From: Ectocarpus siliculosus
Lineage: Eukaryota; Sar; Phaeophyceae; Ectocarpales; Ectocarpaceae
DNA: 26,633 bases
Reading direction: 5' to 3'
Assembly: GCA_000310025.1 (NCBI GenBank)
Contig: FN649753.1
Coordinates: forward strand, 791,092 to 817,724
Below the pieces are notes generated by a model. The model saw nothing but the letters and a program-made list of their open reading frames with translations. It did no database searches and was not told the origin of the DNA. Of this stretch, positions 5,999-25,421 are shown in pieces. A program made the position numbers and the translations under genes. How positions within the stretch are numbered: the first letter of the stretch is position 1; the number at the start of each line of letters is the position of its first letter.

Positions 5999-6342
5999 CT
6001 GCACCAATGGTCTCGCAGCAAGCGTGGAGAGTAAAACAACGCCGCGTACTCTCTGACATTCATGTTTTCCGGCGAAATGCGGGTGCCACACAAACCACGA
6101 GAAATGCGATGATGGCCAAACGTTGGGCGTTCCCATTGACGTACACGCGATGAAAGATAACAAGTACATGTAGGAACTTTGATACATGCCCCTGGGGGGC
6201 ATCATTCCCCGCGCCGCGGAAAGAGAGACCTACCCGAGGTACCGTACTGCCGCCGGGGGTGGGGTGGTGAGAGACGAATCTCGCCCCACCGCCCCTCCTC
6301 CCACACCCTCGCCTTGGCCTCAACCATGTCCCTGGCTCTCAC

Positions 6343-6544
6343 CTAGAACCATCGGGGAAGACGATGCTTCCGCGGCCCGTCCTGCGATCATCGTGGAACA
6401 TCCCCTCGAAGGTCAGCCCAACCTCGGTCCACTCGTAGTGGCCTCGTCCACTCCTGCGGTCAAGAGCCTCGGTGCAAGTCTCCGTGGGGCCAGCGGTAGA
6501 CGCCCACGCCGTGCCTTCTGCCGTTGTCGAAGCCGCCCTCGTAG
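6343..6544 (-). pseudogene. MORN exon 6, with frameshift
   Basis: It reads YEGGFDNGRRHGVGVYRWPH and GDLHRGS, then TGA at 6462-6460. One base over, the MORN sequence resumes as DRRSGRGHYEWTEVG, TFEGMFHDDRRTGRG and FPDGSR up to the donor GTGAGAG. The break lies inside one MORN motif at about 6461-6463, and the motif is short by a few residues there, so a small deletion is likely. Confidence 0.8.
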
Positions 6545-7026
6545 CTGGAAGAGAGACGCCAGCAGAGTACATGTACCGGGAGGACTGAAGGTCAAGAGGT
6601 ACTCACTCCAACGTCAGACTCGTCTCAGAATCCGGAACACACGCCGTCGCCACCCACGACACTCAGGCACGCCACATCAGGCGCAACAGTACAAGTAGCA
6701 TGGTACACGATGCGTTTTTTCCTGAACCGAAGCATGAAGTGAAAGCCGTGTTCGCATTTGGCTTAGCCTGAGAGTAATGGTGTGAACAAAAAGAAGAGAA
6801 CAGAGACAAGGCAAGAGAAGCAACACAAAGACGGAACGCCGTTCGACGACGGTGGGACAGAAAGGTCTAACACATTCCAGACACACAAAATGGGGAAGAG
6901 ATGGAGCACGGCACAGCTAGCATCAGATGCGCATTGAGGGAAGGGTGTTGAGAAAGAGATGGGCGCACGGCATAGACAGCCGAAACAGCATGGCACAGAC
7001 ATTCCGCTTAGTGCTTCTCTGCTCAC

Positions 7027-7198
7027 CTGTTACCATTGGCGTAGAAGTAGGTTCCGCGGCTGTGGCACTTGCCACCATCGAACTACCCTTCGTATCTCGC
7101 CCCCGTGGCGTAATAGTATGTGCCCTCCCCGTGCGGCTTTCCGTAGAGCCACTGCCTCACGTAACGATTGCCCGAGGCGTACCACGCGTTTCCCTCTC
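7027..7198 (-). pseudogene. MORN exon 5, with in-frame TAG
   Basis: It encodes GEGNAWYASGNRYVRQWLYG, then KPHGEGTYYYATGARYEG. A TAG at 7085-7083 follows, then FDGGKCHSRGTYFYANGN in the same frame. The stop sits where MORN repeats usually have Glu. No GT-AG pair can remove it. Two invariant Gly positions are also changed (YVRQW, CHSRG). The donor AG|GTGAGC keeps phase with exon 6. Confidence 0.8.
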
Positions 7199-7484
7199 CT
7201 GCCAAGTGGAAGAACCAAGACAATCAAACAGCAGCTCGGATGAGTGAAGAAGGAAATACAATAACAGAGGTACAGTCCTGGCTCGTGCCTCCTGGGCCTT
7301 TGCTCTATAGTCTGGACAATGGCGTCCATTTCGGCTGCGCACAAAGGCAATGAACGAGTGGTACAAAGCAGGTACGTCCATTGCTTGAAACTTTCGAGCG
7401 ATTGAAGGTGAGGTGAACCGTGGATGAAGCAGTGAAATAGCGATAGAGCAAGACAAGAATAAACCAATGGACATCCCAACAAAC

Positions 7485-7663
7485 CCCCATTTTGGAGCGT
7501 GCCAGCTCCGGTCATCTCAACGTGTTGCACGTTGCCTTGCCACTGTCCCTCGTAGCTGGAGCCGTCAGCAAACAGGAAAGGCCCTTGACCGTGTCTGCGC
7601 CCTGCTTGCAACTCCCCGATATACCGCCCGCCAGATGAGAAGATGAATGCGCCGCTTCTTACC
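7485..7663 (-). pseudogene. MORN exon 4
   Basis: It follows a strong pyrimidine tract and CTCCTCAG. It encodes VRSGAFIFSSGGRYIGE, then LQAGRRHGQGPFLFADGSSY and EGQWQGNVQH, and ends GAGTLQNG before GTTTGT. Phase 1 at the end matches exon 5. Confidence 0.75.
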
Positions 7664-8054
7664 CTGAGGAGCAACGTGAAAAAGAAGTGGAAAAATGACG
7701 CGCGGCATGAACAAAAATTAGGTCTCTGGGTAGTGCACTGAGTTGAGACGATTCATCCAGTGGTGTCGGGACAAGACGCTAACACATTGGCAACATACTG
7801 GTTTGTGTCGTAGCCATCACACGACGGCCCTGCTAGAAACACGGTTCGGCGGAGAACTTCCATCATGTGCCACGGCGGCAGACTAACCGGATGTCAGCAC
7901 GAGAAGCTGAAGACTTGCGCGCGGTTGCAACCGTACCGTAGCCCGTCGTCTCGAACCGTATGGCCCCAGCGGTCGGGTGCTACCGACCCCGCAAGCGGTC
8001 TACCCAGGGCACATCGTGACGACACTGCTGACCATGCAACGTCGTCGGCATCAC

Positions 8055-11992: not shown

Positions 11993-12348
11993 TCATGGTC
12001 TCGTTGAGAATAGGGGCGGGGGAGGGGGCGGGGGGACAGCGGCTGGGGCAGCAGCAGCAGCGGGAGCAGCATCTGGACGAAATATCGCCCTGAGCATATT
12101 CAGGGCCGCCTTCATCTTCTCGCTCGTGGTCAGGTACGTGTACAGGGCAACCAGAATGGAGCCAATCGCGATCAAGGCGCTCAAGGTGAAGCGTGCGGGG
12201 TCCCCGCCGAACCAGAAGAACACGTACGTCTGGAACGAGAGCTGCGGGACGCTCTCAAGAGCCGCTTCCACGAACTTGATGCTGTTCATGTATGACTGCC
12301 TCTGGCTTAGTTTCTCCTCCTCCTCTTCCAGGGATTGTTCCGAGGCTC
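11993..12348 (-). CDS. XKR module, C-terminal exon
   Basis: The acceptor CTACTAG matches phase 1 from 12907. It reads GASEQSLEEEEEKLSQRQ, then FVEAALESVPQLSFQTYVF, FTLSALIAIGSILVALYTY and SEKMKAALNMLRAIFRPD, an Ala/Pro-rich tail and TGA at 11995-11993. The E-x-x-P-Q-L motif in a helix is the most XKR-like feature in the protein. Confidence 0.8.
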
Positions 12349-15300
12349 CTAGTAGCGCTGGTGTTCGTGGTTGAGCGGGGTGGAGCCCATCAAGAACAGC
12401 AAGACGGCAGGCGATATGGGAAAGGCATGTTGCGTGTTGTGGACATAGATCTACAGTAACGCTTGAGCCCGGCGTTGACCACGTGTTGTGAAACCCGTGC
12501 ACTCGCTCGCCACAAACGAGAACAACCACTGGGGAAATCTATCGCGAGCAAAGATGGGCGCCGCTAACAACGGTCCGTCGGGCGTTCCTCACGACAGAAT
12601 GGCACAGCTCATGCAAAAAGGCAGGGGCATGGGGACAACGCTTACTCGCGGCCCCAAATGGGAAATTTTCGTTCATGTCACCGCAAGAAGCTACAATACA
12701 GCTTCTAGGTGGCATCCTGCTTGCCGACGAGGGGCGGGCCATGTATCCAGGGCTTGTTTTACGATTTCTTGGCAGTGAAAGCGCGGATGACATAAACGGC
12801 CGATGGGTCGCGATCGATCTATCACTTGTTGTGAACCCCCTGGGAAGACACGCAAGCACGTTGAGCATGCCGTCAAGGCACGTCGAGGTGCTGAAGCTCA
12901 CGTTACCTTTCATGAAAAGACCGATGTTCTGGCGAATGACGACCCAAGTTGCACCCACGATCAGGACAAGCGCCCACCAGCAGAACAAGACCAGAATAAG
13001 TTCAAACTTGAGCAAGATCAGGAACCACGCACACCAGTTGTCTTGGTTATCGGCGGCCTTAAGCCAATCCTGTCGACCAATCGACGTTCGCGAGTACAAG
13101 GGACAGTTCCAACAAGATCATCACACTCCAACGGATTAAAATGGGCGCGGAAGATCGTGAAAGTACGTTCAAACAGACAAACTAGAGTAAAGGTTTCGAG
13201 TTAATCGCGGGGAGGTGATTTCCCCGTGCTGCGGGGTGTGAAGGTTTCGGGTCGCTCTTGATCCACGTACCCTGCTGGCTGCCACGCGAACGATGAGCGT
13301 CTCCAAGCGAGCCCGAGCAGGCGTTCATTTCCGTCTGGTCTACAACCTGACGGGGTACTAGTGGAGAAAGAGCCCGCTCCTGGCACCGCGAGGCGCCTCC
13401 CAAAAAAAAAAGAAACAACGAGTCTTTACCCACCCGTTCCTGACAGCGGGGCGCCTCCCAAAAAATAACGAGTCTTTACCCACCGTGAACAGCGACCGAA
13501 GCCAGATGGGCAGGAAGGATCCGAGACATTTTTCTGCTTCCTCCCCGTCCTCCTTGGTCGCCCTCGCGGAGCGAGCGGTATTCTCCGGCTCCTCTGCCAG
13601 GTTGTGGTAAGAGGCGGCCCAAAACGGGAAGACGTAGAGGGGCAAAATGACGTTCTTGTCCGGCGGAGGATGGAGAGCGGCGAACGCGACCGTGAAGCGG
13701 CAGCTCAACACGAACAAGACGACCAGCAGCGTCGTCCACAGCGGGTGCGAGTCCATCCAGTAGCCGTAGATGACGGACAGGTCCGTCCCGACGTCTACCG
13801 GGGACGCCAACGCCATCACCGACTCGTACAGCTTCGTGAACATGAAGACGTACCGATTGCGGCGGCAGCGGGCGAGAAACGAGGGCGACGGCTGGCTTCC
13901 TTCACCGCTCGACCGCTCGCCGCCGCCGGTCGACCGCCCGCCGCCGCCTCCGCCGCCGCCGCCACCTCCGTCGTTCTCCTTCTTCTTCTTCTTGTCTTCG
14001 CCCTTGATACACCCCAACACACAGCCGACGCACCCCGCAAAGATCGCCACGCCCACCACGGCCATCGCCGCCACCCCAACCACGTTTGCGAGGTCCGGGT
14101 CCGAATCTTGAGGGGGCGAGGTCGGCGCCAGCGTCTGCCCCTGCAAGAGGCCGCTGCTCGCCGAAGAAGGGGCTGGCGCTGTCGTCGTCGGGAGGCCTTC
14201 CTCCGGTGGGAGCAGAACGAACGGCGCCCGTGTGAAGGGAGTCGGCGTCGTCTTCGGCGCCCGGATCGTCAACTGCGGGGCCGGGGTGGAGGGCACCGAC
14301 GACGGCGATGGAGACGGGGCCGGCGATTGAGACGGTGCCGGCGATTGAGACGGGGCCGGCGTCGGGATCGGTTCCACCTCCCCGACGTCCAAGGAAACCA
14401 GGACGAAATCCTCCTCCCCGTTGTTGTCCCCGTCCCAGCTGCCCTCGGTGGTGCCCGCCAGGATCGCCCGCGGGGCCCCCGCGACCACCTGCGAGACCGT
14501 TGCCGCGGTGATCCAGTCGCTGCTGTCGGTGCCGGCCTGGGGGCGTGGGGGCGTAAAGTGTGCAAACAGAGATACAAAAATACGCCAACCACCCGTTAGG
14601 TTGATCGCGCGCAGTGCCTGGCTGGCTTCTGGGTTGCGATCGTGGGTTGTAGCAGTGCATGTCTTTGTCGGTAAAAGGACAAGGCTACTGCCGTCAGCTC
14701 AAAGGGCGATCGTAAATGCACACAGCAGAAGAAAGAAAAGCGATATCTCCAACTGCGGGCGTCGCCCGGTCCCTAGACCGCAGCGCTTAGTGCCGGCAGC
14801 AAGCAGAACGCTGCTCGAGAGCAAAAACTGGGCATGTACAGGCAATCGTTTCGCCGGCCGGCAACAATCGGCTGTTCCCACGCATGTTGGGATACTCGCC
14901 CTGGCCTCATCAACCATTTTTTGCCTCCCCGCCGGAGGGAACATTGTTTGGCGGGGTGATGCAACTGGTACTACCCGTGGGTCCAAATCAAACTCGAGAA
15001 GCCACGTGGTCGCTGCGATCAGTGGTTGCTCCATTCGCATCCTTGGGTCTTCTAGCGCACGTGCTTCTATCCTCGTTGTACTTCTTGGCGGGGAATCGGG
15101 AAGTAAGCGCCAGAGACAGAAATGATTCAAGAGAGAAGCAAAGAGAGACAGAGACAGAATGCTACAGACGTGGCTAAAAGAGGACATGCACTGTTTTCTC
15201 GCGACATTATTGCTGGCGGGCATGGAGGCTCGCCCTACCGCACCGCTCAAATCCCGCTGATACCCAGAGCATGAAACGGCGCGTTTCACCGCGCTCGGCG

Positions 15301-17426
15301 AGACAGGCCTTGACCCGGCCGCGCCCACAAACACAACTTCTCTCCCGCCATCCACCGAGAGACGCTCGCTCGCTCGCTCGCTCACCTGCCACCGCCACAT
15401 CTCGCTCCCGTTGGCGTCGAGCCTCGCCGCGCAGAAGTCCGAACCCCCGGCGTTGGTCTCGGCCCAGTCACCCTCCGAGTACCCGGTCACGACGACGGAG
15501 TCGTCGTCCAGGATGGCGGCACCGAACAGCTTGTCCGCGGCCGAAGTCCCGTTCTGTCCACAGCCCGCGTGTTTTTTGTTAAATGTTTAATGTTCAGCGA
15601 GACACCGAACCAGATGTTATCATGCGCTCATGTAGTGGTAGGACGGCGGGCAGGGGTGCTCATGTTTTCCACGCCTTAGGCGTTAGGCCACTGAAACTAC
15701 GCCACCTCATTTCACGCGCTCATGTAGTGTAGTGGTAGGAAGGCGTGCATATGGGAGGGAGGGGTGCTCGTGTTTTGCACGCCTTAGCTGTTAGGTCATT
15801 GAGACTACGCCGCCTCTTTTCACGCCCTCACGTAGTGATAAGAAGGCGTGTGCGTGTGTTTTTGGCGAAACGCAATCTTCCCCGTAACAACGGGCCCTAG
15901 TTACCGGGGAAAACGTAGGGCTACAGCAGTCGAGACAGGTTCAGCTGGGTTGCGGCGGTTCTGCGGTGCCGTCTCGCACCTGCCAACGCCACAGCTCGGA
16001 CCCGTCCCGCCCGTCGATCTTGACCACCACGAAGCCCTCCGACCCCTTGTTGATCCCTCCGAAGGCGCCGGTGGAGTATCCGGCCAGATACACCCCGCCG
16101 TCCCTGCCCACGACCACCATCAGCCCAAACTCCTCGTCCTCGGTACCGTCCTGACAAGAAAATTAATCGAAAAATGCGCCCCCCCACCCCCCGACCACCA
16201 CATCCCGAAGGATGACGATGACATGTTCAAATATGATTGCGGCTCCGAGTGCGAAGAACGGGTTCATGTCGTTGCAGATTGTCCGGTTCACGAAACGCAG
16301 AGGGAAACATGCATGGCTGAGCTGGGGGGAAAAGGTAGGAGGAAGAAACAGAGGGATCATGGAGGCATGGGGCAGCCAGGCGAGGACGGTAGCTGTATTG
16401 GGGCATAGGAGGTTGGCTGAAAAGGAAGGACATGGTATCGGTAGGACAGATAGGCTAGGGAAATATTTGTTTAGCCCACCTTTGGTAAAGTAGAAAGCGA
16501 TACTGGTGATCGGTACTGTGGGAACAAGGCTTCGTCCTTTCCAGGACGCGTGGGGGTCAATGGTGTAACCGCTAAGGCATGGAAAATATAAGTACGTCCC
16601 CACGATATCCTGCGGTCCGTTGTGCTATCGAGAAAAACTTTCTTCGCCATTGTCGTCTTTATGGTGGGTTTTGGTGTTCACGTGGTTCGGCGGGGGCAAT
16701 GAATACCTGAACGTTCCCGACAGGCCACGTTATGGAAACTCGAACAGCCTCTCCTGCTACCTGCCGTATCTACGCAGCAAGGCTGGAGAACATGCACCGA
16801 AGGCATTCGGCAAACCTTACGACCATAGAAAAACACCACTGCGCCAAGGCCTTTGATGATATACAATCTCTCTGTCGTCTCTGTACACACAGACAGTGGT
16901 GTGGTCCCCACAACATCGCGGTCCCAATTAACGCGGTTCCCGATACGTGGCGGAATATATTTCTTGGCACAAGTACTATTCAGGGACCTTCCTCCAGTAG
17001 AGCGCCTCTCCGACATACCGCGGTTTTCTGACGGCCGTCATTACACCGCGGTATACAGTTGTGTTACCTGCCAGCGCCAGGCCAGGGTCCCGTTGGCGTC
17101 CAGCTTGGTCACGGCGAAGTCCGTCTCGCCTTCGTTGGGCTGGTTCCAGTCGCCTTCCGTGTAGCCTGCGAGGAAGACGGAGCCGTCGCCGTCCACGGCA
17201 ACCGCTTTCGTGGTGTCGTCGGCGTCCGTGCCATCCTTTTGGAGACGGACAGGATATTCGCGAGAATACGAGAGAGAAGGGGGGGGGGGAGAGACAGAGA
17301 GGGAGAGGGAGAGGGAGAGGGAGAGAGAGAGGGAGAGGGAGAGGGAGAGAGGGAGAGAGAGACAGGGAGAGACACGCAGGTAGGCAGGCAGGCAGACAGG
17401 TAGAGAGACCGACAGACAGGCAGGTA

Positions 17427-17487
<61 letters not shown>

Positions 17488-19192
17488 ACGGACGGACAGA
17501 CGGACAGGTAGACAGACACAGAAGGATACAACGAGAGAGACAGAGAGACAGAGAGACAGAGAGTGAAGGCCTTGTCGGACGTGATCAGAGGGGCGGGCGC
17601 TGCCGAACGTCCGCTGCATCATGGTGGCGGCTGGGAAAGAAACCTCTAGAATGCCTGTCTCAGGTGGACGATTGACGGCACCCCATATGATACGTCAATC
17701 AGGAGTAACCGCAAACGTAGACAAAACATCCCGCATCAACAAGAAATAAGTCGATTCTTGTCGAAAATAACCTCCGGGAGTCAAGTCATCCCGTTGGTAG
17801 CAACGCCATCGAAGGGCCTTGACCGAAGGATAACTGCCCCCTCTTGCCAGTTCCACAACGATCCCGTCTGTTACCTGCCACGACCAGAGCTCGTTGCCAT
17901 CGGCATCCAGCTTCGCGGCGCAGAAGTCGTACCCACCAACGTTGCTCGCGGCCCAGCTCCCCTCCGTTCGGCCGACCAGCACGACCTCGCTCCCGCTAGC
18001 GCTATTGGCGGAAGTTATTCCCACGAGAAGCTCGTCGTCAGATGTACCGCTCTGCCGAGGTTTGTTTGTTTTTGGCACGGCACACAGGCAAACCGAAAGT
18101 ATAGCTTTGGACATCCACCCGTGGTTTTCATTTCGTGCAACTACCGAAACCGATCGCTTCGTAAATTGATTTTCCTCAAACGCGGTAGACATTCCCCGCC
18201 CCCTTGCCGCGATCTCCTGCGGATTTTTCTTGGAAAAATGAAACTCACTTTCTCCGCCTCGCGTTTCACACCTACCTGCCACTTCCACAGAACCGCTCCG
18301 GACTCGTCGAGCTTCACGGCCGCTAAGTCGCCGAGCCCGGCGTTTGTACCGCTCCAGTCCCCCTCGGTGCTTCCGGCCAACACGACCGACCCGTCCGAGT
18401 TGACGACCGCATCGTTGAGGTTGTCCTCGTCGCTGGTGCCGTCCTGGTACATGAGCGCGGCGGCGTCACACGGAGCGGCGAAAACGCGAGAGAAAATATG
18501 GTGCTGGTGCAACACCGAAGCGGACGGGAGTCTGTCTCGCCTCCCGCGATGCTTCGTGTGGAGGAGAAGTTGGAAGCACGGCAATGTCGTTATCGGAACG
18601 GGAAGTCCTCTCCCGGTTTGTCGGCCGGGGGGCGTGCAGCGAGAAGACGGTTAGCCCGAGTGACGAACGTTTTTCGGGGTGAATACCTTAGCCTCCAATG
18701 TGCTTCACAGGGGGGCGGGTTGTACTAGGGGGCGGTGTCAACCGTGTGCATAGAGGCAAATCCAACTCGTTTGAAACGAACGTCCCTGTTCATCTACCAT
18801 TGGGAGAGTTGACAAGGAGAGCTCGGCCCGGCACTCATCACCTGTCGTGAGACGATCGGCAACGCGCTTCTTGCGAGAGTCTTTACACAAACACCAAACG
18901 ACTTCTTTCGTGAGCAACATCGGCAAACCGAGAGCAGCATAGGGCCTACTGCGAGCGGAACAGCTAACCGTGGGGGGAACAAACTTGTAAATATCTAAAC
19001 TCCGCCATCGACCGCACTGACCTGCCAATGCCACGAGTACACCCCGTCTGGTCCGAGCTTCACCGCTAAGAAGTCAAATCCACCCAGGCTGACGAAGGGA
19101 AAAAAATCGCCGTCCGTTCGACCGACCGCAATGATCGTCCCGTTGTCCCCGGCGGCGACGCCCTTCATGTTCTCGTTCGCCGGCCCCCCTCC
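11993..19192 (-). CDS. SBBP seven-bladed propeller fused to XK-related membrane module (5' partial)
   Basis: Nine exons, 19192-19022, 18443-18276, 18051-17875, 17235-17068, 16150-15980, 15553-15386, 14536-13484, 13069-12907 and 12348-11993, join without a frame break to 864 residues and TGA. Residues 1-341 are six SBBP repeats and the next exon opens with a seventh, giving the seven of one closed propeller. A Pro/Ser/Thr linker, a transmembrane helix, a Lys-rich and poly-Gly stretch, and several more membrane segments follow. These carry SPVDVGTDLSVIYGY and EAALESVPQLSFQTY, which resemble the D-x-x-T-D and E-x-x-P-Q-L motifs of XK-related proteins (Pfam PF09815). Animal XKR proteins include caspase-activated lipid scramblases; scrambling here is inference. 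A start codon and signal peptide are not seen. I know of no described protein with this order, but could not search. Confidence 0.8.
12349..12906 (-). other. Intron of the propeller-XKR gene
   Basis: 558 bases. Phase 1 continuity argues against a hidden exon. The minus strand stays open for about 70 codons at 12539-12870, but with no family resemblance and no phase-matched borders. Confidence 0.6.
12907..13069 (-). CDS. XKR module, middle exon
   Basis: It starts in phase 0 after GTCGACAG and ends in phase 1 before GTAACG. It encodes DWLKAADNQDNWCAWFLILL and a long hydrophobic stretch ending ATWVVIRQNIGLFMK, one or two membrane helices. The acceptor has a poor pyrimidine tract, so its border is less sure than the reading frame. 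Confidence 0.7.
13392..13484. repeat. Tandem duplication covering a splice donor
   Basis: Two copies of a unit beginning GGCGCCTCCC, then an A-run, then ACGAGTCTTTACCCACC occur at 13392-13433 and 13450-13483. On the gene strand each copy contains GGTGGGTAAAGACTCG, so the donor sequence exists twice, 50 bases apart. Confidence 0.8.
13484..14536 (-). CDS. Blade 7, linker, first transmembrane helix and first half of XKR module
   Basis: 351 codons, phase 0-0. Residues 1-56 are blade 7 (AGTDSSDWITAATV, ILAGTTEGSWDGDNNGEED, VSLD). Residues about 57-148 form a linker rich in Pro, Ser and Thr with a repeated SQSPAP unit. A helix at about 151-176 (VVGVAAMAVVGVAIFAGCVG) is followed by KKKKKEN and poly-Gly, so the C-terminal side is likely cytosolic. 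Residues about 228-310 hold YVFMFTKLYESVMALASPVD, VGTDLSVIYGY, WTTLLVVLFVLSCRFTVAFA and LPLYVFPFWAASY, which resemble XKR helices. The donor GTGGGT at 13483 lies in a tandem duplication. Confidence 0.85.
14537..15385 (-). other. Intron of the propeller-XKR gene, 849 bases
   Basis: Phase 0 on both sides. A purine-rich AGAGAGACAGAGACAG stretch lies near 15128-15160 and CTCG repeats near 15362-15382. Nothing else recognised. Confidence 0.6.
15386..15553 (-). CDS. Propeller exon, blade 6
   Basis: 56 codons, phase 0-0: NGTSAADKLFGAAILDDD, VVVTGYSEGDWAETNAGG and FCAARLDANGSEMWRWQ, followed by GTGAGC in a CTCG repeat. Confidence 0.85.
15625..15850. repeat. Imperfect tandem repeat in intron, 2.3 copies
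   Basis: Units start with CGCTCATGTAGTG: 15625-15716 (92 bases), 15717-15822 (106 bases, with a few small insertions) and a partial third from 15823. Shared blocks include GGGGTGCTC, CACGCCTTAG and GACTACGCC-like segments. Confidence 0.8.
15980..16150 (-). CDS. Propeller exon, blade 5
   Basis: 57 codons, phase 0-0: DGTEDEEFGLMVVVGRDGG, VYLAGYSTGAFGG and FVVVKIDGRDGSELWRWQ, followed by GTGCGA. The turn reads STGAF in place of TEGDW. Confidence 0.85.
16151..17067 (-). other. Intron between blades 4 and 5, 917 bases
   Basis: The longest intron of this gene. I searched it for another DGT...WRWQ exon and saw none. No other element recognised. Confidence 0.55.
17068..17235 (-). CDS. Propeller exon, blade 4
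   Basis: 56 codons, phase 0-0: DGTDADDTTKAVAVDGDG, SVFLAGYTEGDWNQPNEG and FAVTKLDANGTLAWRWQ, followed by GTAACA. The acceptor CCAAAAG is weak and lies next to the purine-rich repeat of the preceding intron. Confidence 0.85.
17277..17560. repeat. Compound microsatellite: (GGGAGA)n then (CAGG)n then GACAGA-type
   Basis: A purine-rich GA block runs from 17277 to about 17375, a near-perfect CAGG run of about 14 units from about 17430 to 17486, then GACGGACAGA and AGAGACAG units to about 17560. It lies in the intron between blades 3 and 4. On the transcript strand it is CTCCC/CCTG, strongly pyrimidine-rich. Confidence 0.9.
17875..18051 (-). CDS. Propeller exon, blade 3
   Basis: 59 codons, phase 0-0: SGTSDDELLVGIT, then a three-residue longer loop, VVLVGRTEGSWAASNVGG and FCAAKLDADGNELWSWQ, followed by GTAACA. 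Confidence 0.85.
18276..18443 (-). CDS. Propeller exon, blade 2
   Basis: 56 codons, phase 0-0: DGTSDEDNLNDAV, GSVVLAGSTEGDWSG, GDLAAVKLDESGAVLWKWQ, then GTAGGT. It is a textbook SBBP repeat: a hydrophobic strand, the G-x-T-x-G-D turn, then A-V-K-L-D-x-x-G. Confidence 0.85.
19022..19192 (-). CDS. Propeller exon, blade 1
   Basis: 57 codons, phase 0-0. It encodes GGGPANENMKGVAA, then GTIIAVGRTDGDFF, GGFDFLAVKL and SWHWQ before GTCAGT. It is the most divergent of the single-blade exons and lacks the DGT opening. The exon supplying the start must lie upstream. Confidence 0.75.
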
Positions 19193-19869: not shown

Positions 19870-20080
19870 CTGCCACCGCCAATCTTCTGTCGCCATGCTG
19901 GGTACTGAGGTCCGTCGACCTCTCACTGCCGTGTAGACCGCGGAAATTCACTCCAAAGCGGTGGGGGCAATCTTGTCGCCTGCTGAGGCCAACCGCGATA
20001 CAATGAAGGTTGGAGAGGATGTAGGAGGATTTTCGTTATCGCCTTCGACCGGCGGTACCGACGAAAACGTGCAATGCTGA
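19870..20080 (-). pseudogene. Possible decayed propeller-blade exon
   Basis: The right-hand end on the gene strand reads Trp-Arg-Trp-Gln then GTGATG, exactly how the blade exons end. Upstream, in shifted frames, are PTFIVSRLASAGD (compare GTIIAVGRTDGD) and FGVNF (compare GGFDF). At least two frame changes and a TGA lie between. The start is approximate and resemblance is weak. Confidence 0.3.
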
Positions 20081-24800: not shown

Positions 24801-25421
24801 TCAATCTCGTGGCGCATGTAAGCTGGCGTTACGGCAGCAAACAACCAACACCCCCCCTCGCCTCGCGTCAGCAACACTTGTCTGCCCAACCAACGCTACT
24901 GCAGTCCAAAGAAAAATCAAGCCATGATCGAGTGCGCCCAAGAAAATTGGCCAAACGCGCTTGAGCTTCATTGCAACGCCCATATTTTTCCCTGTCGAAG
25001 TACCCGTGTACACACCGCAAGCATGTGCGGAATTTCTCTCTTCCGTCTATATTTCCCCATCGATTCACTCCTTTCAAATATGGCACGACGCGTCAACAAC
25101 GTCTTCACAAGAACAGAAAAAAAGTCATGCCAAACATAACGCTCCTATGTGCCCAGCCCAGCCCACTATTTAACACCGCCAACCCGAAGCCCCTTTTGGC
25201 ACGTCACCGAGCCAACTAACCCCTCCCGCTGCACCCCCGATGCCGGTGGAACATTCGGCCACAACCTATAGACACAGTTCAGGACGCTCAACTTTCTTCA
25301 CCCAAGCCCAGACCTTGGCAAAGCACGCGCGTTCATACGCACGAAAAAACAACGTCTGGCACGCCTCCTTCATTCACTCACACCCCAACAGATGCCCGCT
25401 GCTGATGACAAAGAAATACGC
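21843..25421. other. Gene-poor region
   Basis: About 3.6 kb without a recognised gene on either strand. Open frames of up to about 160 codons exist but show no domain, no consistent splice borders and no family resemblance. It includes a (GTAT)n run near 22780-22798 and the 3' flank of the gene ending at 25422. Confidence 0.55.
22038..22053. repeat. Run of 16 G
   Basis: Uninterrupted G tract preceded by AGA. Length is likely to vary between individuals or sequencing runs. Confidence 0.9.

Follow-up and report, generated by a model that had tools for sequence, protein, structure and literature searches.

The minus strand of the window, by which we mean the whole 26,633-nucleotide stretch of Ectocarpus siliculosus DNA analysed here (C28:791092-817724), carries what we read, with about an even chance of being right, as one gene for a receptor-like membrane protein, in which an exoplasmic ligand-binding propeller would be joined to half of an XK-related (XKR) domain as its output and which would belong to a family whose members swap their output modules. 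Ten exons splice in frame to a protein of 873 residues without an internal stop (Table 1). The nine introns are all of the GT...AG type and 224 to 917 bases long; eight of them are in phase 0 and the last one is in phase 1. The protein begins with a short strand, which is followed by seven SBBP-type repeats and a stalk rich in Pro, Ser and Thr; a membrane helix and a lysine cluster then lead to the XKR module. The initial annotation had placed seven SBBP repeats, a linker, a membrane helix and XKR segments in a single frame, and all of these elements were recovered where it had put them, on the minus strand. Its nine exons are also all present; it had, however, missed the first exon at 19896-19870, which brings the total to ten. 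The fusion of propeller and XKR in one open frame, as proposed there, is borne out by the splice without an internal stop, the Pfam XKR match and the match to CylK.

Table 1. Features of the propeller-XKR gene; positions are those of the window.
Feature	Position	Strand	Remarks
Exon 0	19870..19896	-	N-terminal strand MATEDWRWQ with the start codon; start shared with C33, C472, C13 and C1
Exon 1, SBBP-type repeat 1	19022..19192	-	repeat profile E 2e-18; splice
Exon 2, repeat 2	18276..18443	-	repeat profile E 2e-23
Exon 3, repeat 3	17875..18051	-	repeat profile E 2e-19
Exon 4, repeat 4	17068..17235	-	repeat profile E 2e-24
Exon 5, repeat 5	15980..16150	-	repeat profile E 4e-20
Exon 6, repeat 6	15386..15553	-	repeat profile E 8e-22
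Exon 7	13484..14536	-	one open frame: repeat 7 without closing W.WQ, stalk, membrane helix, KKKKK, XKR TM1-TM2
Stalk, start (exon 7)	14389	-	
Membrane helix, start (exon 7)	14086	-	
KKKKK, start (exon 7)	13993	-	
TM1, start (exon 7)	13801	-	with DVGTD
TM2, start (exon 7)	13741	-	
Exon 8	12907..13069	-	hydrophobic stretch that links XKR TM2 to TM3; the least secure exon
Exon 9	11993..12348	-	TM3, TM4, Ala/Pro-rich tail, stop at 11993
TM3, start (exon 9)	12283	-	with K..E...E..PQ
TM4, start (exon 9)	12190	-	

Skipping of exon 8 was considered and set aside: exon 7 could be joined to exon 9 in phase via the alternative donor GTAAAG, and the exon was kept, with a weak preference, because the score of the membrane part alone against the Pfam XKR family (PF09815) falls from 44.3 to 37.1 bits without it. 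Intron 3 contains a long GA and GGCA simple repeat at about 17280-17540. In the genome-wide family search, a 901-residue open frame is given for C28:803225-803431 and 804773-804892, where the stop-to-stop frames are 181 and 446. Elsewhere in the window, a WD40-type frame at 683-1852 on the plus strand matches the EML-like second-propeller model PF23414 (E 6.8e-12, below the model cut-off), and MORN repeats above the Pfam cut-off are found at 6339-6602 and 7030-7752 in a neighbouring gene on the minus strand.

Exons 1 to 6 encode one repeat each, with W.WQ as its closing strand directly ahead of the splice donor; the seventh repeat, at the start of exon 7, is without this strand. An iterated repeat profile finds exactly these seven repeats in the window, with E values from 3e-10 to 2e-24; as the profile was first built from the window's own repeats, these seven matches are partly there by construction. 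Independently of this profile, a search of the PDB with the propeller gave a match to CylK (E 3e-46), the C-terminal domain of which has been described as a seven-bladed propeller (PMC8916777). The NCBIfam model NF047494 matches the propeller with an E value of 2.1e-31, which is below its own 400-bit cut-off, and the delta-60 model does so with an E value of 1.1e-13, likewise below the cut-off of that model. Pfam SBBP (PF06739) remains just under its cut-off of 20.5 bits, with 19.7 bits for the 864-residue splice without the first exon and 17.7 bits for the propeller alone. A structure model was obtained for the intronless paralogue L025, and thus not for the window protein (mean pLDDT 70.0, pTM 0.76, 113 of 457 residues under 50). 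It contains 28 strands, one of which precedes repeat 1 while the last blade has three, a layout that a closed seven-bladed ring would need, and its best fold matches are five CylK entries, led by 7fh7. The start MATE...W.WQ is likely to be the ring-closing strand; exon 0 would supply the fourth strand of blade 7 and thereby close the ring. In sequence and number, the repeats resemble those of the bacterial SBBP or CylK-type seven-bladed propellers. Unlike these, the window gene is eukaryotic, encodes one repeat per exon, anchors its propeller in the membrane and lacks the N-terminal domain of CylK. Neither the propeller nor the XKR part found a relative when prokaryotic and viral contigs were scanned, an approach that detects close relatives only.

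The propeller is not alone in this genome. Across its 492 contigs (189 Mb), a search with the propeller returned 70 matches with E values of 1 or below, and seven of these are the window's own exons. Seven repeats were counted in nine of the eleven loci scanned (the window and L001-L010) once split or weak pieces had been joined, and L008 and L010 have three repeats each; the count draws on weak pieces for repeat 2 of C1 and, in part, for C9 and C12, C472 has its first repeat truncated at the edge of the stretch scanned, and C13, C1 and C9 have theirs split. At C472, C13 and C1, one exon encodes repeat 7 together with a T/P-rich stalk, a membrane helix and a helical region, and protein-kinase exons follow downstream in the same orientation (PF07714, E values of 1.9e-23, 1.2e-24 and 1.1e-23). 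By order and strand, the propeller and kinase exons at each of these places read as one gene. L002 (C472), L003 (C13) and L004 together with L023 (C1) are listed as candidate receptor kinases with an SBBP-type ectodomain. The window gene has the same start, seven repeats, stalk and membrane helix as these three, but continues with an XKR module instead of a protein kinase. A second propeller-XKR gene was not found in the whole-genome searches with the propeller and with the membrane part. Among the six loci compared, C33 is by sequence the nearest paralogue (47% over 383 columns, branch support 0.898); its downstream frames, inspected by eye, show a Ser/Gly/Pro-rich stretch and a hydrophobic end and no XKR.

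Much of the C472 locus is present in a second copy, and the three longest pieces aligned between the two are 93-95% identical. Blade shuffling was considered for six of the nine seven-repeat loci (all except C472, C9 and C22a) and rejected: best matches are those at the same position for five of seven blades from the window to C33 (four of seven in the reverse direction) and for five of seven each way between C13 and C1; distant pairs have none. For diversifying selection, the pair C22a and C22b, neither of which is the window gene, gave no sign over the seven repeats (dN 0.057, dS 0.103). A cluster of intronless seven-repeat genes with a membrane helix, some of them with a long T/P stalk, lies at C12:1.53-1.58 Mb (L009, L024, L025 and L027). 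L006 and L007 on C22 are similar neighbouring propeller loci, and the second one combines a Cys-rich stretch with a membrane helix and a Pro-rich tail.

The XKR similarity claimed in the initial annotation was found by profile search: against PF09815, the 864-residue splice reaches 36.9 bits, with an E value of 2.6e-9 and a cut-off of 24.8 bits. Taken by piece, exon 9 alone reaches 24.8 bits, which equals the cut-off, the part in exon 7 stays below it with 15.9 bits, and exon 8 gives no match. The match spans positions 11-176 of the 337 positions of the profile and hence only the first half; what had been called an XKR module is the N-terminal half of one. For the second half, there is no significant match in the frames of the window (best E 0.58), so that the gene does not encode a complete scramblase. 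XKR9 consists of two four-helix domains in succession; in the first of them, the acidic residues on TM1 and TM3 are strongly conserved and TM3 has a PQL kink (PMC8298096). The window protein has only this first domain. Scrambling by Xkr8 needs D26, D30, K134, E137 and E141, and W45 serves as a gate (PMC8500837). The window protein has D, D, Y and W at the spacing of D26, D30, Y37 and W45 and K, E, E and Q at the spacing of K134, E137, E141 and Q145. In 20,000 shuffles of the membrane part, the two spaced motifs arose five and three times, respectively, with the motifs chosen after their fit had been seen. When the Xkr8 residues were placed by ungapped counting by hand, eight of 14 matched and D12, R42, D129, Q155, R158 and Q163 did not; R214, D295 and W309 fall within the missing half, and R98, D180 and R183 could not be placed. 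The calcium-site segment of Xkr4, D123-V-G-T-D127 as read off the names of mutants (PMC10495444), is identical to DVGTD in the window protein, and E310 of Xkr4 may correspond to E141 of Xkr8.

Ordinary XKR genes are also present in this genome. Among the best candidates scored in the Pfam family search, XKRs are located on C477, C476, C8, C16 and C30 (two places) in addition to the window, and among the matches listed, XKR and propeller places coincide at the window alone. The XKRs of C477, C476 and C8, which were read over their full length, have the second half, and the ordinary XKRs read so far either have it or are fragments. C30:3382463 (L030) is a real multi-exon XKR of the ordinary kind, and its TM1 reads DVGTD, as in the window and in Xkr4. 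Weak XKR matches at C361, C206 and C6 look by eye like non-coding or repeat DNA and were discarded. The TM1 motif occurs in four of five ordinary XKR pieces tested and the TM3 motif in five of six. A genome search with the membrane part of the window protein returned only itself at E values up to 1. In phmmer searches of the PDB, this part found nothing up to an E value of 10; as the ordinary XKR L013 found nothing either, such a single-sequence search is insensitive. The window scores no more than 7.9-10 bits with a profile of three XKRs from the same genome, and hhalign with five such XKRs reached a probability of 44% over 45 columns around TM3. The structure model of L013 (pLDDT 41.1, pTM 0.29) was too poor to use. 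At the level of sequence, the profile match and the residue spacing show that the window protein carries an XKR half-domain: it shares PF09815 and, at the same spacing, the acidic pair of TM1, a W45-like tryptophan and the two glutamates and the PQL kink of TM3 with Xkr8, Xkr4, XKR9, L011-L015 and L030, but differs from them in having the N-terminal half only and, in addition, an N-terminal propeller, a stalk and an extra membrane helix.

The XKR half-domain might serve solely as a membrane anchor or dimer interface in a receptor or adhesion protein and take no part in scrambling, a reading that is possible though doubtful: four of the eight XKR transmembrane helices are missing, XKR9 itself did not scramble in vitro (PMC8298096) and the sister loci make do with a single membrane helix, yet TM1 and TM3 keep their polar residues, for which a plain anchor would have no use.

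Of the 100 residues that follow repeat 7, 53 are P, S or T. In the stretch examined around the membrane helix, K and R are absent on its N-terminal side and occur five times on its C-terminal side. The same holds for the family: in eight membrane helices picked by hand (window, C472, C13, C1, C9, C22b, C28:672k and C12), there are no K or R before and two to six after the helix, and the net charge after it is zero in C12 and positive in the other seven. Under the positive-inside rule, these charges would put the propeller on the exoplasmic side. Four N-glycosylation sequons lie within the first 410 residues, which proves nothing. The start MATE...W.WQ before a GT donor is shared by five genes (window, C33, C472, C13 and C1), a variant start, MSLPGDEIWRFQ, is present in C22b, and the patterns used did not find this start in C9 and C22a. 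When six loci were compared over as much as 3.5 kb ahead of their start, conservation began only with the methionine, apart from weak, chance-level matches before it. Twelve hydrophobic ATG frames upstream in the window were considered as signal peptides, and none could be linked to exon 1; the most signal-like one, at 24971, lies about 5 kb upstream of the gene and may be a first exon that went unrecognised.

Cytosolic propellers are common. With no signal peptide found, the propeller of the window protein could be cytosolic as well and the membrane helix could run in the opposite direction, which the start shared by five loci, the onset of conservation at the methionine and the lack of a conserved upstream peptide would favour. 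We regard this as unlikely, since the charge pattern holds in eight of eight membrane helices, the kinases of the sister loci would sit outside the cell and the XKR part would be inverted; moreover, the signal-peptide-like frame at 24971 could be the first exon. A propeller outside the cell is suggested by the charge pattern, whereas the absent signal peptide, odd for an exoplasmic domain of 400 residues, speaks against it. The exoplasmic position is nevertheless preferred because the XKR part then starts in the cytosol, as in known XKRs. The cell-surface receptor proposed initially gains support from the paralogues whose membrane helix is positive on its C-terminal side, three of them followed by kinase exons. 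For the propeller, which had been called extracellular, the charge pattern and the kinases favour this position; no signal peptide was found, and the family starts with MATE...W.WQ. That two adjacent genes or a misassembly have been read as one is very improbable, even though the gene model comes from the genome sequence and no second copy of the fusion was found in this genome, because blade 7, the stalk, the membrane helix and the first XKR helices share the open frame of exon 7, inside which the junction lies, and C472, C13 and C1 likewise have repeat 7, stalk and membrane helix together in one exon.

Seven-bladed propeller ectodomains are also found in the CRINKLY4-type plant receptor kinases, the repeats of which are not known to be related to those of the window gene. 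These kinases share the combination of propeller ectodomain, membrane helix and output domain with the window protein, but their output is a kinase and not an XKR (PMC4617170). The brown-algal LRR-ROCO genes are candidate receptors and, like the window gene, have one repeat in each of their symmetric exons; they differ from it in their LRRs, their cytosolic GTPase and the phase of their exons, which is 2 in LRR-ROCO and 0 in the window gene (PMC11378527). A review of brown algae names LRR receptor kinases and integrin-like proteins, and its text contains neither 'propeller' nor 'scramblase' (PMC8307928). Among the literature matches listed on XKR fusions, protists, SBBP or propellers and receptor kinases, which cover few subscription journals, there was no propeller-XKR fusion; searches for XKR in stramenopiles or Ectocarpus gave no match, and those for SBBP or propellers in Ectocarpus gave no such fusion among the matches listed.

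In the receptor-like protein that we favour, the propeller would be located outside the cell or in a lumen and the lysine cluster inside, so that the N-terminus of the XKR part would face the cytosol, as known for XKRs. The propeller, a fold that often serves to bind other molecules, would bind a ligand or a wall component, and the XKR half-domain would act as the output by changing the distribution of lipids or the activity of a partner, possibly as a dimer and with the help of external calcium. If the half-domain scrambles lipids, it may do so alone, as a dimer or together with an ordinary XKR. Across the family, the same type of ectodomain would be placed before different output modules. 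A more specific version, in which two copies of the N-terminal XKR domain stand in for both halves of an ordinary XKR and a ligand on the exoplasmic propeller together with external calcium, bound by DVGTD and the glutamate of TM3, opens a path for lipids, is rather improbable; if it were true, an alga-like host would have a receptor family that signals either by phosphorylation or by the exposure of lipids.

The known scramblases of the XKR family are described as being switched on from inside the cell, by caspase cleavage or by phosphorylation of the C-terminal tail (PMC8500837, PMC8298096). The fusion to a binding domain suggests that a scramblase-type module may here be controlled from outside the cell, and a natural N-terminal half makes the function of half an XKR directly testable. 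The sister loci, in turn, point to a family of receptors in which one ectodomain is combined with different outputs.
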